A stretch of 64,000 bases of DNA from Flavobacteriales bacterium. Its GTDB lineage: Bacteria > Bacteroidota > Bacteroidia > Flavobacteriales_D > Sanyastnellaceae. The notes below the pieces were generated by a model. That model searched no databases and was not told the origin of the DNA. It was given only the letters and a program-made list of their open reading frames with translations. How positions within the stretch are numbered: the first letter of the stretch is position 1; every line of letters starts with the position of its first letter. Below are positions 7,008 through 39,492 of the stretch, piece by piece. Both the position numbers and the translations under genes were made by a program. The DNA lies in the NCBI GenBank assembly GCA_022447625.1, contig JAKVAX010000007.1, positions 1 to 64,000 of the forward strand, written 5' to 3'.

Positions 7008-9458
7008 CTACGCGTCTGCCAAAATCACATCAAACAACTCATCCACTTGCGCTCTTCCTCGGTAGGCGATTCCTGTTGTTCTGCAGCGTAATCGAAGACT
7101 TTCTTTGGGTTCTTCGAGGAGCCTGTTAATTTGGGCTTGTGCTTCTTTCGCTGACGTAGAACTGATTTCGTCTATGACTATGCCCACCTCGTATTCCTCA
7201 GCCCATTGATCATCTTCAGAAACGCCACGGCAGGTGATGTAGGGGAGCCCGCACATGAGGTATTCGCCTACTTTTACTGGGGAGCGGAAACGTTGACTTG
7301 GGTACGGTGGAATAGCGGTTAAACCAATGTCTGCAGCAGAGAGCCATGCAGCCATTTCTTCCGGTGTACGTGTTTCTGAAAGATGATAATCTTGCTCGGT
7401 GAGACCGCCCTGAGACAAAATAGACCGTACTTCATCTTTCTTGCTCGGACTCAAGAACACGAAATACCAATTGGGATCGGAGGCCTTCAGTTCAGCACAG
7501 AACTGCGCAATTTCATGGTCGTAGTATATGCCACCGAATTTCCCAGCATAGATCAATACTTTGCTTTCTGTAATGCCGTGTTCCTGTCGTAGTTGGTCTC
7601 TTGCTGCTTGGTCGAAATTGAATTTCTGCTGGTCAACACTTGAGGGCGCGCGATGAACAGATCCTTTGGCCCGTCCTTTGAGTTCTTTGACCATATGCTC
7701 AGTTCCAGTCAGAATATAATCCGCGTCTTTACCAACGCGGTCTTCGAGGCGACTTAAGATCTTGTAGCGCCATCCCGAGCGTTTCCAAATTCCGAACTCA
7801 GCTAAGAATTCACTGTGGGGTTCATAGGAATACACCATCAGCTTTGACCCCAGCACTTTCGACATCAATAAGGATATCGCTGCAGAGTTATTCGCAAAGG
7901 CAATGGTCATTTCCGGTTTCTTTCGCGTTCTGATGCGAACCACTTGAATGAAGGCATTGGTGAAATCGATGGCCTTCTTGATAAACATGAAACTCCCAGA
8001 GTGATAGGTAAGAGGAGACCAATCAATACCATAAGCTGTGAGCTTAGCTTGAATAGCTTTTCGCTCTTCTTTTGTTAATTGGTACTTCCGTTGCTCAAAG
8101 GTGATAAGATCGAATTGATAGTTCCGGTGCCGGCGAGACTGTTCCACCATATACTCGTACACCAAATTCTGGAAGAGCGGATCACGGAAACTGTTGTAAA
8201 TCAAGACCACAAAGTTCTTCGGACGCTGCTCTAACAGACCACCCGGAGCGTAGATCTGGTGATACGAATTTCGAGCGATGTCTAAGCCACGGTATTGGGC
8301 GGCCACTTCTCGTATACGCTGTCTAATCTTCTCTTTGTTCTCCGGTTGAATGAGTTCCTCGATCGTTTTCACAGCACCTTTATAAGCCGTTTGATCCAAT
8401 GTTTCCATCACGGCACCAATGCCTTCTTGTTTGATCAGGTCAGAGTCGTCAGAGATATTGGCGGGAATGACTACAGGTAAGCCGGTTGCCCAATACTCGC
8501 CATCTTTAATGGAAGTGCAGTAACGCTTTGAAGGCACTGGTTTTACTGGGTTAATGGCAAAATCGGCCAAGGCTAAATAGGCGGCGACATGGGCATGCGG
8601 AACAAAACGAAGTATGATAGTGGAAGGGTCCAATTCCGCGCTAGCGCAAAGTGCGTTAAGCTCATCTTCTTTAAGATCGCTCAGCATAATCACACGAAAA
8701 CAATCACCCCATCGCTCGCTACAAACCTTGAAGAAGTCGAAAATTTCTTGACGCAAATAAATGCCTCCGACCTTACCCGCGTAGATACACAGAATGTCTT
8801 CCTTTTCTACGCCTAAGGCGGAACGGCTGACGCCTTCAACTTGCTGGTCAGGTCCAAATTGTTCAAGATCAACCACGGCCGGCTTGTTTAAGAAACGACG
8901 CGGAACATGGTCATAGGTTGCCGCCGCATAATCGCGCATTCCTTCGGAAGTAGCCAGGGTGGCGAAGGCGTTGCGAGTCTGACGCTTCTCAAAGTAAGAG
9001 AGCAAACGATAGGCCAGACTGCCATCTTTCCCCGAACCATTCTCTACCATAGACTCAGCATGGGGCTCATAACTATCCACGATGTAAGGAACGCGCGTCC
9101 ACTTGCTGAGCACATGTGCCGAGGTGGAGGCCGGACTACCGAAGGCATGAATGACCTCAATGTTGTTGGTTTTTACATAACGCCGAAGCATCCACAAGTT
9201 CCCGAGCCAAGCACGCATAGCACGCCAGCCAAAGTGATGGTAATCACGCTTCACCCATATGATGCCCTTGCTTTGCAACTCTTTTATAGCAGCCTTTTCC
9301 TCTTCGATATTCAGCTGCATTTGTTCCTTTTCGAGCGTAAAAAGGTGAATCTCACAGTCATCACCAACGGCATCGCGAATCATATCGAGATAAGGCAACG
9401 TCCACGCGTGAATGAGTGGTTCTTTGAAGCTCCAATATGTGATCACTAAGATCTTCAA
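7008..9458 (-). CDS. Tandem-duplicated two-domain glycosyltransferase
   Basis: 816 residues, about twice the usual size of a GT4-type glycosyltransferase. Residues 1 to ~405 and ~415-816 are homologous. Both begin with a strand-loop leading to a P-L-hydrophobic helix (FKEPLIHAW, FRDPLFQNL). Both carry a YEPH motif (DSYEPHAE, YSYEPHSE), a YAGK..GGIY segment opening the nucleotide-sugar domain, and a late K.GEY....GLP segment. The likely role is transfer of two sugars during surface glycan assembly; donors and acceptors cannot be read. The start is a TTG whose last two bases are in the TGA of the upstream epimerase gene (TTGA overlap), and no nearby ATG would keep the first strand. It is the last gene of a five-gene operon. 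Confidence 0.82.
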   Translation of the reverse strand: MKILVITYWSFKEPLIHAWTLPYLDMIRDAVGDDCEIHLFTLEKEQMQLNIEEEKAAIKELQSKGIIWVKRDYHHFGWRAMRAWLGNLWMLRRYVKTNNIEVIHAFGSPASTSAHVLSKWTRVPYIVDSYEPHAESMVENGSGKDGSLAYRLLSYFEKRQTRNAFATLATSEGMRDYAAATYDHVPRRFLNKPAVVDLEQFGPDQQVEGVSRSALGVEKEDILCIYAGKVGGIYLRQEIFDFFKVCSERWGDCFRVIMLSDLKEDELNALCASAELDPSTIILRFVPHAHVAAYLALADFAINPVKPVPSKRYCTSIKDGEYWATGLPVVIPANISDDSDLIKQEGIGAVMETLDQTAYKGAVKTIEELIQPENKEKIRQRIREVAAQYRGLDIARNSYHQIYAPGGLLEQRPKNFVVLIYNSFRDPLFQNLVYEYMVEQSRRHRNYQFDLITFEQRKYQLTKEERKAIQAKLTAYGIDWSPLTYHSGSFMFIKKAIDFTNAFIQVVRIRTRKKPEMTIAFANNSAAISLLMSKVLGSKLMVYSYEPHSEFLAEFGIWKRSGWRYKILSRLEDRVGKDADYILTGTEHMVKELKGRAKGSVHRAPSSVDQQKFNFDQAARDQLRQEHGITESKVLIYAGKFGGIYYDHEIAQFCAELKASDPNWYFVFLSPSKKDEVRSILSQGGLTEQDYHLSETRTPEEMAAWLSAADIGLTAIPPYPSQRFRSPVKVGEYLMCGLPYITCRGVSEDDQWAEEYEVGIVIDEISSTSAKEAQAQINRLLEEPKESLRLRCRTTGIAYRGRAQVDELFDVILADA

Positions 9459-10552
9459 GCCGGCTTGAATAGATGGGCGATGATGTCTGCAATTCGCATC
9501 GAGGCTAGACCGTCTCCAAAAGGATTGACCATCTCAGAAGCGGAAGTATTCCGCCGGAAGGCTCGATCAACTGCTTGGATGATCTTTTCTTCATCATTCC
9601 CAACCAGCGTTGCAATACCTTGTTCCACGGCCTCCATACGTTCGCTCTTTTCACGAAGAACCACGGTTGGAAGTCCGAAAGCCGGAGCTTCTTCTTGAAG
9701 TCCACCGCTATCAGTGATCAATAGGTGAGCTTGATCAAGCGCTGCCACCATTTCTGGGTAGCTCAATGCCTCGATCAAGTGAATGCGTTCGCGATTCCCG
9801 AGCTCTCGGTGAATGACCTCACGTACTTCAGGGTTCAAATGAACCGGAAGTACCAAATGGAGATCTGAATGAGTTGCATTGATCGTCTGTAAGGCCTTGC
9901 AGATGGATTTTAGTCCTTCTCCATGATTCTCCCGACGATGCACCGTAACGATCGCCATTTTTTGTGCTGAAGGAATGGAAAATGGAAGGTCAACCGGAGT
10001 GTCTGAGATCTTTTCACGCATGAATTGAATCGCGTCAACCACAGTGTTCCCCGTTAAATGTACTTCTTCATGTCCTTCCTGTTTCAATAACTGAAAAGCA
10101 CGTGGCGTTGGGGCAAAATGTACGGTGGCCAATTGCCCAATTCCTCTGCGATTGAACTCTTCAGGGAATGGAGCGTAAATGTCTTCTGTGCGCAAACCAG
10201 CCTCTACGTGTCCAACAGGAATCTTGTGGTAGTACGCGGCTAAACCGCCCACGAAGGCGCTGGTAGTGTCTCCTTGCACGAGCACAAGGTCAGGTTTGTT
10301 GTCTTGATTGTGTTCATCAAGTGCAGTAAGTAATCGACCGGTGAGGGCAGCTAATGATTGTCCTTTCCGCATGACGTCAAGTTGGAAATCAGGCGAAATA
10401 CCAAATGCCGAAGGGATGCCCTTCATCAACTCGTCGTGTTGACCAGTGAAGACGATGCGGGGCTCCATACCCGGATAGGTCTTCAGCCGACGGTAAACGG
10501 GGGCTAATTTGATAGCTTCAGGTCGCGTGCCAATGATGAGGTCGATGTTCAC
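9455..10552 (-). CDS. wecB: UDP-N-acetylglucosamine 2-epimerase (non-hydrolysing)
   Basis: 365-residue cytosolic enzyme that interconverts UDP-GlcNAc and UDP-ManNAc, giving an activated ManNAc-type sugar for polysaccharide synthesis. Family motifs are all present: GTRPEAIKLAP at the N-terminus, VQGDTTSAF near residue 90, GHVEAGLRT, PFPEEFNR, and the late TDSGGLQEEA and REKSERMEA segments around the active site. The length is normal. The start is GTG, three bases after the stop of the preceding glycosyltransferase; the 3' end overlaps the next gene by four bases, so the genes are translationally linked. It supplies the precursor for the surrounding transferases. Confidence 0.93.
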   Translation of the reverse strand: MNIDLIIGTRPEAIKLAPVYRRLKTYPGMEPRIVFTGQHDELMKGIPSAFGISPDFQLDVMRKGQSLAALTGRLLTALDEHNQDNKPDLVLVQGDTTSAFVGGLAAYYHKIPVGHVEAGLRTEDIYAPFPEEFNRRGIGQLATVHFAPTPRAFQLLKQEGHEEVHLTGNTVVDAIQFMREKISDTPVDLPFSIPSAQKMAIVTVHRRENHGEGLKSICKALQTINATHSDLHLVLPVHLNPEVREVIHRELGNRERIHLIEALSYPEMVAALDQAHLLITDSGGLQEEAPAFGLPTVVLREKSERMEAVEQGIATLVGNDEEKIIQAVDRAFRRNTSASEMVNPFGDGLASMRIADIIAHLFKPA

Positions 10553-10555
10553 ACC

Positions 10556-11386
10556 TCAAATATCATCATTCTGAGTTAAGGCCTGCTTACGCAACCACCT
10601 TTTGATACCAGTTTGTAGTTGTCCTCCTTTGATATACGACTTGCTCATGATGCTGGTGGTCTTCTTTTTGAATTGGGCTAGCTCCGAATCGGACACGTGC
10701 TCCCAAGAAGCGAGCTCGTTGGCTACTTCTTGATAACCTCGGTCGAGTTTTCCGAGATCAGACATGGCACTCACATTCCCGGTTCGATAACGATAAACAG
10801 GAGAAGGAATGGAACGATATTCTCCAGAAGATGAAATCGATAAGTAGAACAGCAAATCTTCAGAATGAGTCAGGCCTTCCTTGAAATGATAGGTCTTGCC
10901 TTCTCGTCTTCGAATCATCCAGGTAGGACCAAAGAAGCAAGATTCATCAAGTGAAAGCAGCGCTTTAAAGGGATTGCCAGAAAAACTACGAGAGTTCACG
11001 TCTAGTTCTTCGCCATTGTCATCGCTAAACAACTGTACAGCCCCGTCTACAAATTCAACCTCAGGATCCTCGAAGAAGGGGAGCCGGGCTTCTAAGCTAT
11101 TAGGAAGGAGTTGGTCATCAGCATCCAGAAAGCAAAAGAAGTCACCCGTCATGGCCTGGAGACCACGATTTCTAGCGGCGCTTACACCAGCGTTGGCTTG
11201 GGTGAGCAAATGAATGCGTGGATCTGAATACTGTTCAATGATTTGCTGACTGCCATCATTGCTGCCGTCATTGATGCACCACAGTTCCCAATGGTCATAT
11301 GCTTGGTCTAAAACCGATTGAACGGCTGGTTCCAAGGTCTTTTCCGAGTTGAAAAAAGGAAGTATGATGCTTACGAGTGGTTTCAT
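10556..11386 (-). CDS. Glycosyltransferase family 2 protein
   Basis: 276-residue GT-A fold transferase. The N-terminal VSIILPFFNSE strand, the INDGS.DGS nucleotide-binding loop near residue 40 and the FLDADDQ metal-binding DxD near residue 90 are typical of family 2. It probably adds a sugar to a lipid-linked glycan at the inner face of the membrane. It lacks membrane helices, so it is not a processive synthase. It overlaps the preceding gene by four bases (ATGA). The sugar specificity cannot be read. Confidence 0.88.
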   Translation of the reverse strand: MKPLVSIILPFFNSEKTLEPAVQSVLDQAYDHWELWCINDGSNDGSQQIIEQYSDPRIHLLTQANAGVSAARNRGLQAMTGDFFCFLDADDQLLPNSLEARLPFFEDPEVEFVDGAVQLFSDDNGEELDVNSRSFSGNPFKALLSLDESCFFGPTWMIRRREGKTYHFKEGLTHSEDLLFYLSISSSGEYRSIPSPVYRYRTGNVSAMSDLGKLDRGYQEVANELASWEHVSDSELAQFKKKTTSIMSKSYIKGGQLQTGIKRWLRKQALTQNDDI

Positions 11387-12462
11387 TGAAGGAGTTCTTC
11401 AATGTAATCAACTTGTTGTTTATAGCTGCGGTCATCACAGAATGCGCGACGCTTAGCCTGTAATTCAGGTGAGTTGAATGAAGCTGTGTCGTTCAGTGCT
11501 TGTTCCATCAATGTCATCCAAACGGCTTCTTCATCTGCCATTTCGAATAGCTCCAACTGCCAATAACTATCAAGGATGTTGGAGACAATCACGCGTCCAG
11601 TACTCAAGAACTCACAGATCTTATGCGGGTTCGCAACCTGCTCGTATTCATCTGTTTGATAAGCCACCATAAATACATCCGCAGATGCCAAACACTCGTG
11701 GTAGGCGCGTCCTTGTAATGGACCTAAAAGGGTAACATTTGGAAGCGTCTTCAGTTCTTCCACGAAGTCAAGTGCTGCTTGACTCGGTTTCTTCATAAAG
11801 TTTCCCGTTTCATGCACCCCCGCAAAATGAAAATCGGCGTAATGGAAGCGTTTGACGGCATTCAATACACGTTCACGATCTAATAGTTCAATCAACAGAT
11901 TTCCGCTATAAACCACTCGTTTTCGAGGGTGTGGGCTTGTCCATTCGGGAGCGAGAATTACGTTGCACCCATGACCAATATTGAAACTGCGCTCATTCTT
12001 TTCCTTCAAGCGTTCTTGAATAAATCGAGTGGTACAAAGACAAAGGTCGGCCGTAGCTGCAGCACGTTTCCACTCAAAATCTTGGTTGAGATCCACTACA
12101 TGATGTATCGAAGTAGCTCCTTTGATTGCATTTAAATCAAAGAAACGCGAGTTGTCAAAAGACCAAATGATATCGGGTTTGCCTTTGGTGATCGAGGCAA
12201 TCTTAATGAGCTCTCTGCGCTGCAATTGTTTAGCGATGATCGCAGGAAGTTTGCGCAGGCCTTTAAACGGGTGCCAAGACATGATTCGAAGATTCTCTAT
12301 ACCCTCAATCGTTCTGGGCTCTGCAGATCCTCCTGGTGGTTCAATGAAGACAACATCATTGCCACGACGAGCTAACTCTAAAGCATAGTGATGCTTAGAA
12401 AGCAGCTGTTCTGCCCAAGGCTCAGGCGAGATAATCCAGATTATTTTTTCCTCGAAATTCAA
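11383..12462 (-). CDS. Glycosyltransferase, TuaH-like GT-B type
   Basis: 359 residues. The N-terminus IIWIISPEPWAEQ...HHYALELARRGNDVVFIEPP resembles the acceptor half of TuaH-type glycosyltransferases. The C-terminal NPHKICEFLSTGRVIVS segment matches the donor-binding K.YEYLA.G.P.V pattern of GT-B enzymes. It probably acts in surface glycan synthesis. Both ends overlap neighbours by four bases, so it sits in the middle of a coupled operon. Donor and acceptor are not known. Confidence 0.75.
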   Translation of the reverse strand: MNFEEKIIWIISPEPWAEQLLSKHHYALELARRGNDVVFIEPPGGSAEPRTIEGIENLRIMSWHPFKGLRKLPAIIAKQLQRRELIKIASITKGKPDIIWSFDNSRFFDLNAIKGATSIHHVVDLNQDFEWKRAAATADLCLCTTRFIQERLKEKNERSFNIGHGCNVILAPEWTSPHPRKRVVYSGNLLIELLDRERVLNAVKRFHYADFHFAGVHETGNFMKKPSQAALDFVEELKTLPNVTLLGPLQGRAYHECLASADVFMVAYQTDEYEQVANPHKICEFLSTGRVIVSNILDSYWQLELFEMADEEAVWMTLMEQALNDTASFNSPELQAKRRAFCDDRSYKQQVDYIEELLQ

Positions 12463-13691
12463 GACCTCCCGAAGATAGCCCGTTTGATCTGACGGGCCCC
12501 GAGTTTTATGAGGAATCGGTGCATTTTATGCTTGAAGGTCAAATTTGGTTGCTGACGGTGCTCAAAAGCCAATGATTCCTGGAAGAGTTGCTTGTCAATC
12601 GGACGCTTTTCAACCTGTTCCAATGCGGCTCCAAGATGTCGGGCATTTTTCTTCCAATCCAGCTGCTTATCGGCATGCTGTAACGTTCTTTGTTGCCAGC
12701 TTTCCAGTTGCTCACGATCATCAACCGCACATCGCATAGCGTCACTCAACGCCCCTATGTTCACCTCATTCATCAGCCAGTAGTAGTGGTCTTCACGTTT
12801 CCAGTGTTTTTCAACGCTAACGCGGAATCCGTTTTCTCCCTCTTTGATGAACTCGTTCATAGGGGCTTCGTCAGGCACGATAGCCGGAAGTCCGCTAGCG
12901 AGGGCCTCAGGTAGCGAAAGACCTATGCCGTCAAGTCGAGAAGGATATACGTACCAGTCTCCTTCGTGATAGAGTCCTGGAGGAGGCACTTCTTCATTGA
13001 TCCACACGATGCGCTCGTCTGATTCCACGTCTTTCTGTAATTCTGGGAAATGAGAAAGTGGGCGCTGAGCATGGAGGATCAGCTGAATATCATGGTCGGG
13101 AAGTCTCTTGAAGGCCTTCACGCAGAGATCAGTTCCTTTGCGTTTTGGGTTATATCCGAGGGAGTGAAAGAAGCGGAAACCGCGTTCCGCCCGTTCAGTG
13201 CGAGAGTACAAAGATAAATCTACGCCCCAAGGAACATACATGGCACCAGGCAAGTGTTTGAAAACGCTGTAATGGCGTTTGGTATTGCAGAGTAGGAAGT
13301 CATAATGAGCGAAAAAGGGAGCGGTGGAATCAGTATAGTAATCGATGTATGCACCTATCAATGGACGTTCTTTTAACCCGAGCAAACGGTGAATGACATC
13401 CCAACTGTGTTGTTCGTTGAAGAGAAGGTAAGCAGGTTTTTCACGCTCCATCCAAGCGCTGAAGTCGTTCCAATCAATGGTGGTTCTAAGCGCTCCAGGT
13501 AAGAATTCGCCCCAATACACGAAGTCTTGAGCCCACTTGGGGTCATTGTGCGGGAATTCATCACCGGCACGCGCATACACGCGTATGGTGAATCGCTCCT
13601 GTAGCGCAGCTATGTACGCAAGAGAGACGTGAGTTGCGCCGCGTTCGAACCAGGTGCTTATGATTCCGAGAACCGGCTTTGTGGCCTTCAT
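12459..13691 (-). CDS. Glycosyltransferase family 4 protein
   Basis: 410-residue GT-B transferase and first gene of the glycan operon. The N-terminal GIISTWFERGATHV loop and the C-terminal SRLDGIGLSLPEALASGLPAIVPDEAPMNEFI segment, with the family 4 E-x7-E arrangement, support the call. The ATG at 13691 is preferred over the GTG one codon upstream because it gives the conserved MKATKPVLGIIS beginning. A TACCTTTA element lies seven bases before that ATG, so the transcript may have almost no leader. Confidence 0.85.
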   Translation of the reverse strand: MKATKPVLGIISTWFERGATHVSLAYIAALQERFTIRVYARAGDEFPHNDPKWAQDFVYWGEFLPGALRTTIDWNDFSAWMEREKPAYLLFNEQHSWDVIHRLLGLKERPLIGAYIDYYTDSTAPFFAHYDFLLCNTKRHYSVFKHLPGAMYVPWGVDLSLYSRTERAERGFRFFHSLGYNPKRKGTDLCVKAFKRLPDHDIQLILHAQRPLSHFPELQKDVESDERIVWINEEVPPPGLYHEGDWYVYPSRLDGIGLSLPEALASGLPAIVPDEAPMNEFIKEGENGFRVSVEKHWKREDHYYWLMNEVNIGALSDAMRCAVDDREQLESWQQRTLQHADKQLDWKKNARHLGAALEQVEKRPIDKQLFQESLAFEHRQQPNLTFKHKMHRFLIKLGARQIKRAIFGRS

Positions 13692-13698
13692 CACGGCC

Positions 13699-13715: not shown

Positions 13716-14765
13716 CTAATTGCAGGGAAGCCCAATCGTCGAAAGAAAGGCGAGAAGGTCAGCCACGGTCACTTGATCATCGTCAGTTAGATCAGCTTGA
13801 CAGTTCACCGTACAACCGAAATCGCCAAGAAGGGTCAGCAGATCGGTGGTGTTCACTTCGCCATCACCGTTGAAGTCTCCCAGACAGCCACCTAGGCTAG
13901 CGCCAAATCTCAATACGTATCCGTCGTATTCCCCCAGAGAAGAGCGGGATGTAACATCGCCATTATCATCGGTGATTATCATCGTCTGCTCAAACTCTCC
14001 TCCAATCACTATGGAGTTGTCATTTTGAGCCAGAGCTAACGACTTATTTCGTCCAATATCACCGCTAAAGATGAGGTGTGCGTTGAGCACACCTGTTGTG
14101 TCGTATTGAGCAATGAAAGTGCGTTCGTTTAGAACGTCGTAAGACACCGTATTCCCATCTGAAGAAGCGAGCGACCCGGTAAGATTCACCATTCCACTCA
14201 CGCTGATTACGTCGTTTTGAAGGGTCATTTGTCCAGCCTCAGCTTTGAAGCTACTGGTGGTAACGTTGGTAGCGGAGCTTAAGTCACCACCCACGGTGTA
14301 TTTCAAGAGGAAAACATCACTGGAGTTTCCGGAACTCAAGTCGATTGACCCTGTAGACCCGTCGAAAGTTTGAGTGCCGGAGAACTGGCCAAGGACAAAA
14401 AGGGATCCATTCGAGCTGATCTTCATCTCAGTGATATCTGTACCATTTCCACCGGCCAGGTGAGCCCAGCGGTAGCTTCCATCGGCTTCATAGGCTACAA
14501 TCACCATGTCATTGGAACCTCCACCTGGAATTGCCGGTGCAGCTCCAGCCGGATCAAATACCACATTGAACCGCTTAATCGCCGCCATGTAAATGCGTTG
14601 ATCGTCTCCAATTTGAATGTCAACCGCGTAATCGTTTGAGGTAGAACCAAACGAGTTTGCCCAAAGTAATGCCCCATTGAGGTCGAGTTTAGCCAAGAAG
14701 ATATCACTGTTGCCATTGTCGCTAAGGGTGGTTCCGGCATCCAACTCTAGGTTCCCTTGGAAACC
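13716..14765 (-). pseudogene. 3' part of interrupted beta-propeller/dockerin-type protein
   Basis: This is the same reading frame as the ORF that stops at 14766, and it continues for 349 codons beyond that TGA. It carries further propeller-like repeats (LFVLGQFSGTQTFD, SIVIGGEFEQT) and ends in two dockerin-like EF-hand loops: DFNGDGEVNTTDLLTLL and DLTDDDQVTVADLLAFL. Dockerin-like ends bind calcium. The first ATG-like start in this part is a TTG at 14744, which has no signal peptide, so an independent functional product is unlikely. Best read as the tail of a gene broken by one nonsense change, unless the stop is a sequencing error. Confidence 0.75.
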
Positions 14766-16730
14766 TCAAGCCATGAGTAGATAATCGTCTTTTACCTCAA
14801 TGTCATAGGCGTTTTGAATGGCATTTTGATTTAGGTATGTTTCTTTCCAGATGAGGTTGAGATCGCTATCAAGCTTCATCAAAATGAGCGCAGCGAGATT
14901 GTTGATATTAGCGGGCTCTGTGGCCAGCCCACCAGGGCATTCATAAGTAAAGTCTCCAAAGTAACTACCGAAGACGTAGATATTGTCGTCGCCATCGACA
15001 TCAAGCCCCCTTAATTGGAAATTATTCGAGCCGCTTAGCGCAGCTAATCCTTGTTCACCACCTGAGGCATCCTTCAGAGAGATGAACGCGCTTTGCGAAC
15101 CATTTGATTGAATGGTGTTGCCTTCATCTGTGAAGAGTTGTCCCTCAAAATATCCGGCACTTACTACCGAACCTTCACTTAACATGGCTAGCTCAGTTGT
15201 TGCGTTGGAACCTCCACTGAGAGGATTCACTCCCAGGCCATAGTTAAAGCTCCCCATGCCATCATGCTTGGTGACATAAAGATTGGCGCCACTCACTGCG
15301 TTGAAATCTAGTGCCAGTCCACCTCCTTGGGGGTTGAGGTCGAGCAAATCTTGTCCATTCCCGACGGAACACACTTCATTAGCAGTGTTAAAAGCCGCGC
15401 TAATTCCTTCAGCAAAACTAGAGCTGGAAACTTGATCGTACCAAAGCAATTCATCGTTCGTGTCATACACAGCAGTGAAAGCGTCAGTGGTTTGCGTAGA
15501 AGCTTGTATAGAACCGCCGTTCGGATTCATTTCAACATTTCCAGTGAAGTACCCTGAAATGACGGCATCATTTTCATTGTTCAGGTCTAGACTAAATACA
15601 CGATCGTTGCTGTTGTTGCCGATATTCATGGCACTCACGTAGCTCCCATCGTCGAGATAGCGCGCAAGGAAGATATCGTCTGAACCATTAGAGGAAAGGC
15701 TCGCCGTTCCAGCGCTAGCATCAAAGTCAACAGTCGAACGGAAAGTTCCCGTGACCGCAATTTCTCCATCATTCCAGTCAAGATCATTACCCGCATCGGC
15801 ACTTGTCCAGCCCATGGCATTTACCCATCGGAATGACCCATCATTCTGGTAAGAGGCTACGAAAATATCATCGTTTCCTACCGCGACCGTTGCTGTATTT
15901 CCAGCACCGGGATCAAAGTCTTTCGTTCCCCTGAATTTCCCAGTCACATAGAAATTACCTGCATTGTCCAGGGCAAGTTGGTTGGGATAGTCGAAGTTCA
16001 GGGTTCCTTCAACACTCGTTCCCCAATTGTAAGATCCGGTGCCGGTCGTGTAAGATGAAAACCAAATCTGCTGACCGCCGGCCAAAGCTCCTGGAGTGGA
16101 AACCAAGTCTTCTCCCACTCCCGGGTCGAGGTCGAGTGTCTGACTGAAAGCTCCCGTAGTAATCACCTGCATACCGTCAATCAAAAGGCTTGAGCCACTC
16201 TCGGCACCAGGCCCAGTAAGAAGCTGTGCCCATCGGTAGTCGCCATTGCTATTGTATGAAGCGATCATCGCATCTGACTCATTCGGTTCAAATGCGGTCA
16301 TTGTATTTGAAGGGTCGCTCGGGTCAGGGAAGAAAGTATTACCGAAGGTTCCAATGACGTAGATATTGTCATTCGCATCTACAGCGACATCGTTGTAACG
16401 AGAATTACTGCCTGCGTTGAAAGCTTGTGCCCAAATCAGCGCACCACCGGCGTCATATACAACAATGAATGGGCGTTCAGAACTTGGACTTGAGGTGGTA
16501 ATGGGGAAGAAAGAAGGGGAAGGATCTACGTCAACGGTTCCACGGAATTGACCAACGATCACTAAATCGCCTTGGTTATTGATAACAGAGCTGATTGGCT
16601 CCATCCGATTTCCTTCTCCACTTGCAAAGGAACGCAGCCAATCTGTTTCAAATTGGGCGTTGGCACTCAATGGGTTCATGCTCAGGATCATTGCCAAGCA
16701 TCCCATGAGGATTCTCACTGTATTCATCAC
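14766..16730 (-). CDS. 5' part of secreted beta-propeller-like repeat protein, ends at in-frame TGA
   Basis: 654 residues with a signal peptide ending PLSANAQ. The body consists of repeated units of about 50-60 residues with the pattern [VI].G.F.GT.D.DPG followed by SYN.NG.YRWA; this is the SBBP-type propeller repeat seen in exported Bacteroidota proteins. The TGA at 14766-14768 stands where every other repeat has the glycine before xF (compare YVTGKFRGTKDFD with LLMA-stop-GFQGNLELD). A GGA to TGA change would explain it. Translation would therefore lose the C-terminal dockerin-like domain. The ligand is unknown. Confidence 0.82.
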   Translation of the reverse strand: MMNTVRILMGCLAMILSMNPLSANAQFETDWLRSFASGEGNRMEPISSVINNQGDLVIVGQFRGTVDVDPSPSFFPITTSSPSSERPFIVVYDAGGALIWAQAFNAGSNSRYNDVAVDANDNIYVIGTFGNTFFPDPSDPSNTMTAFEPNESDAMIASYNSNGDYRWAQLLTGPGAESGSSLLIDGMQVITTGAFSQTLDLDPGVGEDLVSTPGALAGGQQIWFSSYTTGTGSYNWGTSVEGTLNFDYPNQLALDNAGNFYVTGKFRGTKDFDPGAGNTATVAVGNDDIFVASYQNDGSFRWVNAMGWTSADAGNDLDWNDGEIAVTGTFRSTVDFDASAGTASLSSNGSDDIFLARYLDDGSYVSAMNIGNNSNDRVFSLDLNNENDAVISGYFTGNVEMNPNGGSIQASTQTTDAFTAVYDTNDELLWYDQVSSSSFAEGISAAFNTANEVCSVGNGQDLLDLNPQGGGLALDFNAVSGANLYVTKHDGMGSFNYGLGVNPLSGGSNATTELAMLSEGSVVSAGYFEGQLFTDEGNTIQSNGSQSAFISLKDASGGEQGLAALSGSNNFQLRGLDVDGDDNIYVFGSYFGDFTYECPGGLATEPANINNLAALILMKLDSDLNLIWKETYLNQNAIQNAYDIEVKDDYLLMA

Positions 16731-32112: not shown

Positions 32113-35100
32113 ATGCGTTTGAGGGCTAAATATTTGATTGGAAGTGTGATGTTGATTGTCCTCCTCGGAATGTTCTGGGGCAGTACCGCTGTCAACATGT
32201 TGGAGTCTTGGCGTCCGGATCCAAGAGCGCACAAGCCTATAGTCATTGAACCGGATACATTGGAGCTTCCTTTTCCACACGGAGAAGATCCATTCAACCC
32301 AACCGAGAGTACTGGTGGAATCTCTCTCGATTGGCCTGATAATTTCCAGTACAACGTAGAATACGATCCAATCACCGGCACATATGTAGTCGTGCAAACC
32401 ATTGGTGACTCTATTGTTTTCCGTTCTCCAACGAGCTATACCCTCGATGAATATCTCGAATACGATATCCAGCAGAACGTTTCTGATTATTGGGCTGAAC
32501 GCCAAGAAGAAGAAGATGAAGCGAACCGTGCATGGGCACCAGTGCTGAAAGTAGGAGGGGAAGGGTTCAAAAACATCTTCGGTAGCAACGAGATCGAAAT
32601 TCGTCCGCAAGGTTCTGCGGAATTGACCTTTGGTTTCAACACTTCGAAAACAGATAACCCACGTATCCCAGAACGTCAGCGCCGTATCACGACGTTCGAC
32701 TTCAATCAGCGAATCCAGCTGAACGTTGTCGGAAACATCGGTACAAAGATGCAGCTGACTACCCAGTACAATACGGAGGCAACCTTCGATTTCGAGAATC
32801 AAATGAAACTCGAGTATACGGGCGATGAAGATGAAATCATCAAGAAGATTGAAGCGGGTAACGTCAGTATGCCGCTCTCCGGAACACTGATTTCAGGTAG
32901 CCAGAGTCTTTTCGGTGTGAAGCTTGAAACGCAGTGGGGACGTCTCCGCAATACGACCGTATTCTCACAGCAGCAGGGTGAGCGTAAGGAGATCACTGTT
33001 GAAGGTGGTGCTCAAACACAGCTCTTCGATATCCGCGCTGATAACTACGAAGCAAACAAACACTACTTCCTTTCTCAATGGTTCCGCGACCAGTATGACG
33101 ATGCATGTGCCAGTCTACCGGTAGTGAATTCTGGAGTGAATATTACACGTATTGAGGTATGGGTAGTGAACATGCAAGCAAATACGCAAAACGTGCGTAA
33201 CGTAATCGCATTCTCTGATCTTGGAGAGCACCCGAACTACGTTTCTACTAACCTTCCGGTAGGTGACCTCTCTGATCGCCCTGAATTGGCGACTACCCTA
33301 GATCAGAATCCAAATAACTTGAATAACGACATCTTCCTCGATATGACAGAGAACGAGGAAGTAATGGGTTATACTGGTGCGAATGCCGCGATTTCGGAAA
33401 TGAACATGGGCTACCAGCAAGGGGTACACTACGAGCGTGTGGGTAACGCACGTATGTTGAGTACTTCTGAGTACACCTACAATAGCCGTCTTGGTTTCAT
33501 CTCGCTTCGTCAAGCATTGAATAATGCCGAGGTACTTGCTATATCATACGAGTACACCTTGAACGGTGAGACCTACCAAGTAGGTACCCTTTCACAGGAT
33601 GGATACACTGCTCCTAGCGCGTTGATCTTGAAGATGCTGAAGTCTTCAGTGACACAAGTGAAACTGGATAATGGTGATCCAGCACCGATGTGGGACTTGA
33701 TGATGAAGAACGTATACAGCATGGGAGCGTTCGGAATCAACCGCGACAACTTCCGTTTGGATGTTTGGTACAATGACCCTTCAACGGGAGTTGACCTAAA
33801 CTACATCCCTCGTGATCCGCTTGAAGGACAATTACTCTTGCAGCTACTCAACCTCGATAGGTTGGATATCAATAACATACCGAATAAAGACGGCTTCTTC
33901 GATTTTGTAGACAATGCCGCCACCCAAGGGGGTACCATAGAATCGCAAACCGGTCGAATATTCTTCCCAGTCGTCGAGCCATTCGGTGAACACCTCGAAG
34001 GCGTCATACGCGACCAGGTAGATGATCCTGATCTCGAAGAGTCATTGGTGAATACCATCGTGTATCAGCCACTCTATGATTCTACGAAAACAGCCGCACA
34101 GCAGATTCCTTCATTGAACCGTTTCCGAGTTCGCGGACAGTTCCAGTCGCAGTCTAGTTCTGAAATTAGCTTGAATGCCTTGAACGTTCCACAAGGATCG
34201 GTATCGGTAACTGCCGGTGGGGTAGTGCTCGTTGAGAACCAAGATTACACGGTTGATTACAACCTCGGTCGTGTGCGTATCTTAAATGAAGGTCTTTTAG
34301 AGTCAGGTACTCCAATCAATATCTCGCTTGAAAGTAACTCGCTCTTCAATATTCAAATGCGAACCTTGATAGGTAGCCGCTTTGACTATGAAGTTGACGA
34401 CAACCTGAACATTGGAGCCACCGTGATGAACCTTCGGGAGCGTCCGCTGACTCAGAAGGTAAACGTGGGTGATGAGCCGGTGAACAACACCATCCTCGGT
34501 GCCGATGTACAGTACCAGACGGAGAGTGAATTCCTCACGCGTTTGGTTGACAGAATTCCATTGATCGATACGAAGGCGAAATCTTCGATTGATGTTTCCG
34601 GGGAGGCAGCCTACTTGATTCCAGGATATTCGAGAGCCATCGGTGACGACGGAAACGCATATATCGACGACTTCGAGGGATCACAGTCGGTGATTGACAT
34701 TCGTTCAATCAACCAGTGGTTCATGGCTTCTACGCCAAAACTTCAGTCGGATCTATTCCCTGAAGGAAACGTGGAAGACTCGTTGATCTATAACTACAAT
34801 CGCGCAAAACTTTCTTGGTACACCATTGATCCGCAGTTCTTCCGTGGTAACGGATTGCAAGACGGACAGGTGTCGAACGATATTAAGAGTGACCACCGCA
34901 TGCGCGAGGTCTTGGAAGGTGAGGTATTCCCTAACCGAGAACTTCCGGCAGGAACACCACCACTAATACCAACGCTTGACCTTACCTTCTACCCAGAAGA
35001 GCGCGGGCCGTATAACTACGAATTACCTAACGGAGCTCCAGGAGTTTCAGCAGGTTTGAATACAGACGGAACACTCGTTTCTCCTGAAACACGATGGGGT

Positions 35101-38100
35101 GGTATTCAACGCGCACTAGTGACAACAGACTTTGAGACCTCTAACGTTCAGTTCATTCAGTTCTGGTTGATGGATCCATTCCACGATGATTCTGAGAATG
35201 CGAACGGAGGGGAACTCTACTTCAACCTTGGTAACGTTTCTGAGGACGTTCTGAATGATTCACAGCTTTCTTACGAGAATGGATTGCCTTCAGCCAACCA
35301 AGACCTTCCGGTGCTTGAGTCTATTTGGGGTATTTACCCAGATCCGGCTACCTTCAACGTAGTAAATGCCTTTGATAACTCAACGGGTAACTACGATCAG
35401 CAGGATATCGGTCTGGATGGATTGAATAGTGCAAGTGAGCAGACCTTCTTCGATTCATGGTTGGCTGAGGTACAAGGTTTCCTTGATCCTGACGCTTTCG
35501 CGGAATACCAGGCTGACCCTTCAGGTGATGACTTCGAGTATTTCCGTTCTCCTGAAGCACAGAGCAACGAATGGACTATCATTCGTCGTTACAAGAACTT
35601 CAACGGTTATGATGGAAACTCTGATACGGGAACACCTAACGGTTACCCGATTGCAGCGACGACGATTCCGAACACCGAGGATATCAACCAGGATATCACC
35701 CTAAGTACGATTGAGAGCTATTACCAGTATCGCGTATCACTTCGTCCGCAAGACCTAGGTGAGGAGAATATTGGAAGTAACTACATCACGGACTCTTTCG
35801 AGACGACAGTTGAAACAGCGAATGGTGAGTCACGAAACATCCGCTGGTACCAGTTCAAGATTCCGATCTTCAACTACGACAACCGCGTGGGTGGTATCAC
35901 AGACTTCCGTTCGATCCGTTTCATCCGTATGTTCATGAAAGGATGGTCTGAGGAAGCAACACTTCGATTTGCTCGTCTTGAGCTTGTACGTGGTGAGTGG
36001 CGTGAATACCTCGGAAGTCTTGAAGGGCCACAAGAAATTGAACCGAACGATCCGGAACCGACAACGTTCACGATTGGTGCGGTAAACATTGAAGAAAACG
36101 GTAACCGTGAACCAGTTCCTTACGTGATTCCTCCTGGAATTCTACGTGAGATTGACGTCGGTACCGCGAACCAGCGTCGTTTGAACGAGCAGTCGCTATC
36201 ACTTGAAGTCTGTAACCTGATCGATGGGGATGCACGAGCCGCCTATCGCAATGTGAGTTACGACATGCGATTGTATAAGAAGCTGAAGATGTTCCTGCAC
36301 GCAGAGGCAGGTCCAGATGGAGCTCCTTTGAACGATAATGAGGTAACGGCATTCATTCGATTGGGTAGTGACTTTAATGAGAACTACTATGAATATGAAA
36401 TCCCGCTGAAGGTCACGCCGGCGTTTACAGGCGATGACGATGAAATCTGGCCGAGCGAAAACGACGTTGAAATCGAGTTTGCGAAGTTCCAGAACTTGAA
36501 ATTGTCACGTCCAGCAGGTTATCCAACCTTCCAAGAATACATTGAACGCGATGGTGAGGCGATGCTCCGAGTGAAGGGTAACCCTAACCTTGCCAATGTG
36601 ATCGTGGTGATGATCGGTATTCGTAACCCGCAGCAGGATGGTAACCCATTTGTGAGCACTGATCTTGGTGATCCGAAATGCGTAACTGTGTGGGCAAACG
36701 AACTCCGTTTGACTGACTTTGACGAGCCAGGTGGTTGGGCAGCAGTAGCACGCATGAATGCAACGCTTGCTGACTTCGGTAACGTGTCGGTTGCAGCAAA
36801 CATGTCTACTCCTGGTTGGGGTGGAATCGAGCAGGCCGTACTTGAACGTCAACGTGAGACCATCCGTGGAATTGATGCCAATACCACGCTACAACTTGGT
36901 AAATTCTTCCCTGAGAACCTCGGAGTTCAGCTTCCTGTATATCTCGGATATTCAGAAACGGTGACTACACCTCAATTCGATCCATTGGCTCCAGATATAG
37001 AGCTGGATCAAGTAGACCTCACCCCTGAACGTAAGAAGAGTTCTCAGCAAATAGTCCGAAGGCGAAGTATCAACTTTACCAATGTCCGAATCGATCCTCA
37101 ACCGAGCAATAAGCCTAAGAAGGATAAGAAAAAAGACAAGGAGAAGGATGACGCCGATGATAAGAAAGATAAGGGCGGCAAAGGTGGAAAAGGCGGAGCT
37201 GGAAAAGATGCCAAGTTCTATGATATCTCAAATATAAGTTTGTCGTACGGGTACAACGAGACCTACCGACGAGACATTAACATGGAGTTCCAGATGCAGA
37301 AGAGCTACACTGGAGGTCTGAACTACGCATTCCAGAACAAGCCTACAGAAGTGCGTCCGTTCAAGAACATTGGTTCGAGCCCGTTCTTCAAGTGGCTGAA
37401 AGACTTCAACTTCTACACAGGAATCAAGTCGTTCACGTTCAACACGACGATGGATCGTATGTACGAGACGTCACGTGTACGAAACAACACGGCCGCGCTC
37501 TTCGGAGTTGAGACGAACGTACTCATCCAAACTCAGGTATTGAAGACTTGGAACTGGAACCGTACGTACAACTTGAATTACGACATCACGAAGGCGTTGA
37601 AATTCACATACTCGGCGAACAATCAGGCCTTGGTAGGAGAACCAGCAGGGGTGATTGATCGTGAAGATGTGGATTGGTACGAAGCGTATAAAGACACCGT
37701 TTGGAACAACATCCAGAACTTCGGTGAGACAACGAACTTCAACCACAACGTATCGTTGAGCTACAAGCTTCCGTTCGACAAGATCCCGATGATGGATTGG
37801 ATTTCTTCGGATGCTCGTTACCAAGGAACTTACCGTTGGGACCGTGCTCCGTTCTCACAGGATTCATTGGGGCACACGATTCAGAACTCACGAAACCTGA
37901 CCTTGAACGCACAAGGAAACTTGGTGAACCTCTACAACAAGTCTGACTTCTTAAAAGAGATCAACCGAAAGTCTCCAAAGCGTAATCAAGGTCGTCAAGG
38001 ACGAAATGAAGACAAAGACGGTTTCGGTAATGAAAAGGATGACGATGATGATCGCGAGAAAGTAAACCCACTGCACGTGGCACTTCGTTTCTTGATGATG

Positions 38101-39492
38101 GTTCGTAACGTGTCTGGATCGTACACCCGAAATGAAGGTATCCTCTTGCCAGGTTATGGTCAGACGACACAACTCGTAGGTATGGACCCGAACTTTGAAG
38201 CTCCGGGTATCCCATTCGTGCTTGGTTGGCAGAATACCGACCTTCTCGGAAATGAAACCGGAAACTTCGCCCTGGATGCTGCCGCCAATGGCTGGATGGT
38301 GACCAGTCCGTTCTTGAATCAGCAGTATTCGGAGACCTTCTCGGAGAGCATTAACCTCCGTGCGAACTTGGAGCCGATTAAGCACTTCAAGATTGAGTTG
38401 ACGGCAACTCGCCAGGAGTCACGTAGTCAGAACAGCTTCTTCCGTTTCGATGAAGAACTAGGAGACTTCGAATTCCAGTCGCCATTGGAGACAGGAAACT
38501 TTACAGCATCGATCATTACGTGGGCAACCGCGTTTGAACAGGACGATGAAGACTTCAATAACCCTGTCTTTGATCAGTTCTTGTTGAATCGTCTGTCTGT
38601 GTCAGAGCGTCTGAATGATGAGACTTACCAGTTAACAGATCCTGAAGACAATGGGTACTACGCTGGTTGGGGGCCAACTTCACAAGACGTAACGATTGCG
38701 GCATTCATTGCAGCATACACAGGTCAGGATGTGAACGAGGTGGAACTTGATCCATTCAAGACGAAGATGGCGCCGAACTGGCGTGTGACTTACGACGGAT
38801 TGAGCAAGTTGCCTGCCTTCAAAAAGCGCTTTAAGCAGTTCAACCTGACGCATACGTACCGCTCGACGATTTCGACAAGCTACGTGACAAACTTGAACTA
38901 CGAAGAAGATCCGAACACTGGTCTGCCTGTTGCGATTGACCAAAGTGATTTTGGAAACTTCATTGCACAACGTCAGATCAGCAGTGTAACGATCAGCGAA
39001 CAGTTGTCTCCTCTTATCGGATTCGACATGACGCTGAAGACTTCTGGTAAAAACGATCCTCAGATCCGCCTGGAAATGGGACGTGATCGTAACATGAACT
39101 TCGCATTGACGAACCTTCAGATCACGGAGACTCGCAGTAACTCGATTGTTATGGGAGTTGGATACCGCTTCACTGAGGTGCCAAATCCATTCTACCGTCG
39201 TCGTGGTAAACTGCCGGTTCAAGTGTTGGAAGACACGCAGCTTTCATTGCGTGCTGACCTTACTATCCGTGACAACGTAACAGTGATTCGTAAGGTGGAA
39301 GAGCGTCAGAATCAGCCAACGGCCGGACAGCGAATTCTATCTTTGAAGACCACAGCTGACCTTGAGGTTTCTCGTAAGTTGACGCTGCGTTTCTTCTACG
39401 ATCACCAGATCACACGTCCGAAGATTTCTACGGCATTCCCGACGTCGAATATCAATTCGGGTGTTACGTTGCGATTCCAGCTTACACAATAA
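32113..39492 (+). CDS. sprA: T9SS outer-membrane translocon protein SprA (Sov)
   Basis: 2459 residues, within the usual range of ~2300-2500. SprA forms the very large outer-membrane barrel through which T9SS substrates leave the cell; it is also needed for gliding in relatives. N-terminal residues 7-27 form a signal/anchor. Typical segments follow: VLKVGGEGFKNIFGSNEIEIRPQGSAEL reads as the family signature in shorter parts (GSAELTFGFN, GNIGTKMQLTTQYN, SGSQSLFGVK), then IDDFEGSQS and the C-terminal barrel strands ending GVTLRFQLTQ. Two charged insertions are unusual: a Lys/Asp/Gly-rich stretch near residues 1665-1700 and one near 1950-1985. The ATG lies one base after the ruvA stop; gcvH follows, as in other Flavobacteriia. 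Confidence 0.96.
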   Translation: MRLRAKYLIGSVMLIVLLGMFWGSTAVNMLESWRPDPRAHKPIVIEPDTLELPFPHGEDPFNPTESTGGISLDWPDNFQYNVEYDPITGTYVVVQTIGDSIVFRSPTSYTLDEYLEYDIQQNVSDYWAERQEEEDEANRAWAPVLKVGGEGFKNIFGSNEIEIRPQGSAELTFGFNTSKTDNPRIPERQRRITTFDFNQRIQLNVVGNIGTKMQLTTQYNTEATFDFENQMKLEYTGDEDEIIKKIEAGNVSMPLSGTLISGSQSLFGVKLETQWGRLRNTTVFSQQQGERKEITVEGGAQTQLFDIRADNYEANKHYFLSQWFRDQYDDACASLPVVNSGVNITRIEVWVVNMQANTQNVRNVIAFSDLGEHPNYVSTNLPVGDLSDRPELATTLDQNPNNLNNDIFLDMTENEEVMGYTGANAAISEMNMGYQQGVHYERVGNARMLSTSEYTYNSRLGFISLRQALNNAEVLAISYEYTLNGETYQVGTLSQDGYTAPSALILKMLKSSVTQVKLDNGDPAPMWDLMMKNVYSMGAFGINRDNFRLDVWYNDPSTGVDLNYIPRDPLEGQLLLQLLNLDRLDINNIPNKDGFFDFVDNAATQGGTIESQTGRIFFPVVEPFGEHLEGVIRDQVDDPDLEESLVNTIVYQPLYDSTKTAAQQIPSLNRFRVRGQFQSQSSSEISLNALNVPQGSVSVTAGGVVLVENQDYTVDYNLGRVRILNEGLLESGTPINISLESNSLFNIQMRTLIGSRFDYEVDDNLNIGATVMNLRERPLTQKVNVGDEPVNNTILGADVQYQTESEFLTRLVDRIPLIDTKAKSSIDVSGEAAYLIPGYSRAIGDDGNAYIDDFEGSQSVIDIRSINQWFMASTPKLQSDLFPEGNVEDSLIYNYNRAKLSWYTIDPQFFRGNGLQDGQVSNDIKSDHRMREVLEGEVFPNRELPAGTPPLIPTLDLTFYPEERGPYNYELPNGAPGVSAGLNTDGTLVSPETRWGGIQRALVTTDFETSNVQFIQFWLMDPFHDDSENANGGELYFNLGNVSEDVLNDSQLSYENGLPSANQDLPVLESIWGIYPDPATFNVVNAFDNSTGNYDQQDIGLDGLNSASEQTFFDSWLAEVQGFLDPDAFAEYQADPSGDDFEYFRSPEAQSNEWTIIRRYKNFNGYDGNSDTGTPNGYPIAATTIPNTEDINQDITLSTIESYYQYRVSLRPQDLGEENIGSNYITDSFETTVETANGESRNIRWYQFKIPIFNYDNRVGGITDFRSIRFIRMFMKGWSEEATLRFARLELVRGEWREYLGSLEGPQEIEPNDPEPTTFTIGAVNIEENGNREPVPYVIPPGILREIDVGTANQRRLNEQSLSLEVCNLIDGDARAAYRNVSYDMRLYKKLKMFLHAEAGPDGAPLNDNEVTAFIRLGSDFNENYYEYEIPLKVTPAFTGDDDEIWPSENDVEIEFAKFQNLKLSRPAGYPTFQEYIERDGEAMLRVKGNPNLANVIVVMIGIRNPQQDGNPFVSTDLGDPKCVTVWANELRLTDFDEPGGWAAVARMNATLADFGNVSVAANMSTPGWGGIEQAVLERQRETIRGIDANTTLQLGKFFPENLGVQLPVYLGYSETVTTPQFDPLAPDIELDQVDLTPERKKSSQQIVRRRSINFTNVRIDPQPSNKPKKDKKKDKEKDDADDKKDKGGKGGKGGAGKDAKFYDISNISLSYGYNETYRRDINMEFQMQKSYTGGLNYAFQNKPTEVRPFKNIGSSPFFKWLKDFNFYTGIKSFTFNTTMDRMYETSRVRNNTAALFGVETNVLIQTQVLKTWNWNRTYNLNYDITKALKFTYSANNQALVGEPAGVIDREDVDWYEAYKDTVWNNIQNFGETTNFNHNVSLSYKLPFDKIPMMDWISSDARYQGTYRWDRAPFSQDSLGHTIQNSRNLTLNAQGNLVNLYNKSDFLKEINRKSPKRNQGRQGRNEDKDGFGNEKDDDDDREKVNPLHVALRFLMMVRNVSGSYTRNEGILLPGYGQTTQLVGMDPNFEAPGIPFVLGWQNTDLLGNETGNFALDAAANGWMVTSPFLNQQYSETFSESINLRANLEPIKHFKIELTATRQESRSQNSFFRFDEELGDFEFQSPLETGNFTASIITWATAFEQDDEDFNNPVFDQFLLNRLSVSERLNDETYQLTDPEDNGYYAGWGPTSQDVTIAAFIAAYTGQDVNEVELDPFKTKMAPNWRVTYDGLSKLPAFKKRFKQFNLTHTYRSTISTSYVTNLNYEEDPNTGLPVAIDQSDFGNFIAQRQISSVTISEQLSPLIGFDMTLKTSGKNDPQIRLEMGRDRNMNFALTNLQITETRSNSIVMGVGYRFTEVPNPFYRRRGKLPVQVLEDTQLSLRADLTIRDNVTVIRKVEERQNQPTAGQRILSLKTTADLEVSRKLTLRFFYDHQITRPKISTAFPTSNINSGVTLRFQLTQ

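Follow-up and report, generated by a model that had tools for sequence, protein, structure and literature searches.

An in-frame TGA, either a recent nonsense substitution or a consensus error, in a genus-restricted beta-propeller gene of a Flavobacteriales bacterium

The interrupted frame and its product

The window, i.e., the whole stretch of 64,000 nucleotides that was analysed, contains on its minus strand a reading frame of 1005 codons (1004 codons and the terminal stop), the translation of which has one internal stop at codon 655 (Table 1). The stop is a TGA in the context CTC ATG GCT TGA GGT TTC, and the parts on both sides of it lie in one frame without a frameshift; identical bases were found in the whole-genome copy (contig C67 of the source assembly, G000, which comprises 3.9 Mb in 76 contigs and is 99.8% complete). 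Retranslation and an ungapped orthologue of the congener G001 both agree with the sequence-only reading, according to which one frame is cut by a single in-frame TGA. The downstream ORF beginning from TTG at position 14744 merely reflects the mechanical choice of the first start codon. A start of its own with a signal peptide, named earlier as an observation that would speak against an interrupted gene, was not seen for the downstream part, where the nearby starts are TTG only and inspection by eye revealed no signal peptide.

Table 1. Features of the interrupted locus and of related genes in the window
Feature	Position	Strand	Basis
Gene read across the stop, from signal peptide (by eye) through beta-propeller repeats to dockerin-like C-terminus	13716..16730	-	Ungapped orthologue in G001, full-length homologue in G002
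Open translated part (654 aa) starting with GTG/ATG; signal peptide of the Sec type (by eye), blades to mid-strand	14766..16730	-	PF06739 match; model of the G001 orthologue
In-frame TGA, codon 655	14766..14768	-	Gly in both congeners
Remainder beyond the stop, untranslated, with the final propeller blades and the C-terminal tag	13716..14765	-	Conserved like the upstream part (dN/dS in the text)
Dockerin-like C-terminal tag, about 55 aa	13719..13886	-	NF041540, below the cut-off; like tags end many exported proteins of the genus
Glycosyltransferase-like gene, first of the same-strand run 7008-13694, about 20 bp downstream	12459..13694	-	
sprA, T9SS outer-membrane translocon	32113..39492	+	TIGR04189, 2452 bits

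The encoded protein belongs to the SBBP family (PF06739, 28.8 bits against a gathering cut-off of 20.5), whereas its C-terminal tag, with 23.1 bits for the GC-type dockerin NF041540, stays under the curated cut-off of 29 and is therefore only dockerin-like. With the SBBP / DUF5122 propellers (PF06739, PF17164; NF047494, LipL53-like), the protein shares the repeat signature and the propeller strands; unlike them, it combines tandem propellers with a dockerin-like tail, and its nearest homologue past the sister species reaches an identity of just 41%. The likeness to GC-type dockerin domain-anchored proteins (NF041540) lies in the extreme C-terminus, where loops of the Ca-binding type are duplicated, although the score is lower than the one required for that group. 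The model of the intact G001 orthologue (mean pLDDT 67) contained strand-rich propellers, and a structure search returned generic propeller matches only, the best being the double propeller CylK (TM 0.3-0.5, at this model pLDDT of 67). According to the same model, the stop falls within a blade strand (about residues 650-664) and not at a domain border. It had also been claimed that Gly occupies the stop position in all other repeats; this applies to nearly all of them, the exception being IYMAAIKRF near codon 717. The tag lies 3′ of the TGA, and hence the earlier statement that the stop removes the dockerin-like C-terminus is correct.

Orthologues, selection and the age of the stop

In G001, a member of the same genus, the collinear orthologue of 1004 aa has neither a stop nor an indel (93% amino acid identity), and in the more distant congener G002 the full-length homologue is likewise intact (41% identity). 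The split frame is not a chance arrangement, since both parts align gaplessly to the one intact orthologue of G001 and also align to the full-length homologue of G002. The residue at the stop site is Gly in both relatives, which bears out the proposal of a substitution-type nonsense change at a Gly codon, and among the three congeners the stop is private to G000. Beyond the genus, no match at E ≤ 1e-60 was found in other members of the family (114 family genomes); an alignment search beyond the congeners revealed distant propellers only, and a contig search with the upstream part, near relatives left out, gave no match. Since the gene is genus-restricted, its dispensability is plausible.

Selenocysteine insertion or a reassigned TGA would fit a codon that is in frame and flanked by open frame on either side; however, the relatives have Gly and not Cys or Trp, the other internal stops of the assembly include TAA and TAG, and genes ending normally in TGA occur. 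Recoding can thus be practically discounted, and the earlier reading had likewise found a reassigned code unsupported.

The dN/dS ratio between G000 and G001 (NG86) was 0.088 before the stop and 0.061 after it. Private residues of G000 and G001 stood at 12:7 before the stop and 4:3 after it, with no excess in G000 downstream, whereas if 10% of the branch had been neutral, about 17 extra nonsynonymous changes would be expected downstream; none was seen. Of two marks of a pseudogene, an in-frame stop missing from close orthologues was found, and relaxed selection 3′ of the lesion was not. Given the lack of relaxation, a pseudogene would have to stem from a very young lesion, and because the ratio is equally low on both sides, the stop is either very young or absent from the organism. 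Judging from these substitution data, a real stop would have arisen within roughly the last 5-10% of the period since G001 diverged.

Internal stops across the source assembly

About 1.2 Mb of G001 was compared with the collinear parts of G000 (approximately 92.5% nucleotide identity, 760 gene pairs), and apparent stops were discarded if they preceded the true start codon, as judged by eye, or belonged to ORFs that showed no coding constraint. Internal nonsense codons (TAA, TAG and TGA) were present in 16 of the 760 G000 genes, four of which had two stops each, whereas only two frameshifts were found. In the reverse direction, G001 yielded at most three cases, all doubtful, so that nonsense codons are at least five times commoner in G000 than in its sister. 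The lesion, which appears special in a single window, is therefore one of many in the assembly, and core genes are also affected. The 16 nonsense-bearing genes showed lower conservation than random genes weighted by length (93.3 vs. 96.3% amino acid identity, P = 0.003), and the conservation of the gene studied here corresponded to the 11th percentile. The nonsense spectrum contained 4 transitions out of 18, with 35% expected naturally and 18% if changes were uniform, and hence does not discriminate between an assembly error and a natural origin. A mutator was considered and rejected, as mutY and mutS are intact and the mutation spectrum is broad.

Two of the stops lie in single-copy core genes. 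The hemL gene has an internal TAA in G000 (C56:119634, in L072) and is otherwise 99.3% identical at the amino acid level, being intact in G001 and G002; ftsQ, located in the dcw cluster (order ftsW-murG-murC-ftsQ-ftsA-ftsZ), also has an internal TAA (C23:147385, in L110) and is intact in both congeners. Both genes are normally essential. Since a cell would hardly be viable without the two of them, some of the stops are probably consensus errors, unless this genome is peculiar in some way, while the bias toward less conserved genes and the double stops point to real decay of dispensable genes. The 16 genes thus probably include real losses as well as consensus errors, and the gene studied here, by its conservation percentile, stands nearer to the real losses.

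An error of base calling or consensus building, which would affect only the draft assembly and leave the gene of the organism intact, accordingly deserves serious consideration, although it is the less probable account of the focal stop. It would explain the excess of nonsense of all three kinds over the sister almost without frameshifts, the stops in hemL and ftsQ and the equal constraint in both parts of the focal gene. Against it stand the significantly lower conservation of the nonsense-bearing genes, the four genes with two stops, and the long contigs and near-complete genome, which are unlike an assembly of very low coverage.

Leaky termination was the next alternative: the TGA would be tolerated because readthrough gives a little full-length protein, and selection would have kept the downstream part. 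Such tolerance of short-lived in-frame stops in bacteria has been proposed in general (PMC7918605), and TGA is the leakiest stop (PMC7918605); the persisting constraint downstream agrees with it, as do the stops in hemL and ftsQ, two genes that the cell would be expected to require. However, the youth of the stop accounts for the constraint equally well, the TGA is followed by G rather than by C, the leaky context, the tRNAs detected in roughly one quarter of the genome included no suppressor, and the RF2 matches are alike in the sisters G000 and G001. The programmed form, for which the stop should be conserved in relatives, is contradicted by its absence from both congeners (Gly in G001 and G002), so the earlier suggestion of readthrough is not sustained in that form. 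Readthrough at the focal stop is therefore very improbable, and a still bolder version, in which the lineage tolerates many real in-frame stops, those of hemL and ftsQ included, by leaky termination with low-level full-length proteins, is even harder to credit. As a separate observation, a single TAA interrupts the aligned part of the prfB matches in both sisters (G000 C12:323556-324578; G001 C1:3863307-3864329), which is perhaps a programmed frameshift site with TAA replacing the usual TGA.

The core of the sequence-only reading, a point nonsense change that is either a pseudogene or an error, was retained. The explanation somewhat favored here is a lineage-private, very recent substitution that created the nonsense codon 655 in a genus-restricted gene for a surface or secreted beta-propeller protein, and the stop itself is, roughly speaking, rather more probably real than artefactual. 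The case for a real loss is weakened by the predominance of nonsense over frameshifts (16 genes vs. 2), which is unusual for real pseudogenes. If the substitution is real, translation would end mid-strand in the second propeller; the exported product, a fragment of 654 aa, would lack the last blades and the C-terminal tag and would probably be misfolded and not retained at the surface. The result would be a loss-of-function allele heading to a pseudogene, one among a moderate number of such losses in the genome, and the lineage would have lost a tagged surface protein only very recently. The stop could also exert polarity on the downstream glycosyltransferase run. Most likely, the focal stop represents ordinary nonsense of a known kind, comparable to the in-frame stops of short persistence treated in PMC7918605, and no novel coding mechanism. 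The recent pseudogenes and in-frame stop polymorphisms known from bacteria (Belinky et al. 2021, PMC7918605) likewise combine a single in-frame stop in an otherwise conserved gene with a low dN/dS and a short persistence; those authors demanded the stop in two or more genomes, whereas the focal stop occurs in one genome only and may be an artefact. Single-base stops in this assembly thus need a read check before any biological reading.

The C-terminal tag and the sorting system

No T9SS type A or B sorting domain (TIGR04183, TIGR04131) was matched up to E 0.1 in the focal protein, whereas other proteins of the window do carry such domains, and the genome contains at least 150 type A domains. 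The presence of sprA indicates that the genome has a T9SS export route. In the sampled part of G001, the dockerin-like tag was located 0-9 residues from the C-terminus in all 16 ORFs carrying it; about 12-38 places with the tag were found per congener genome, varying with the search, and several other proteins of the genome exceed the NF041540 cut-off.

Three of the 16 sampled dockerin-tagged genes are interrupted in G000 (length-based P = 0.015, post hoc), the two further ones being located at C34:193265-197671 and C12:206976-208337. This frequency speaks for a real loss; together with the removal of the tag by the stop, it could also be understood as adaptive or regulated truncation, either as phase-like loss or as production of a shorter secreted form that functions without the C-terminal tag. 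Such truncation is nevertheless very unlikely: the cut lies inside a blade strand, and the other interrupted tagged genes are cut at unrelated places. Inspection of the site revealed no repeat, homopolymer or switch sequence, as slipped-strand phase variation would require, and the phase-like loss considered in the earlier reading has to be dropped; nothing apt was found in the literature on nonsense phase variation in Bacteroidetes.

Independently of the stop, the recurrence of a dockerin-like tag at the C-termini of many exported proteins, in a genus that has a T9SS, represents a separate lead. The tag is possibly a third sorting or anchoring tag beside T9SS types A and B; a search of the literature on a dockerin-like tag together with T9SS found nothing apt. 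It was also observed that sprA of G002 consists of two adjacent ORFs (1519 and 952 codons; C2:2716693-2723858), whereas in G000 and G001 it is a single ORF.
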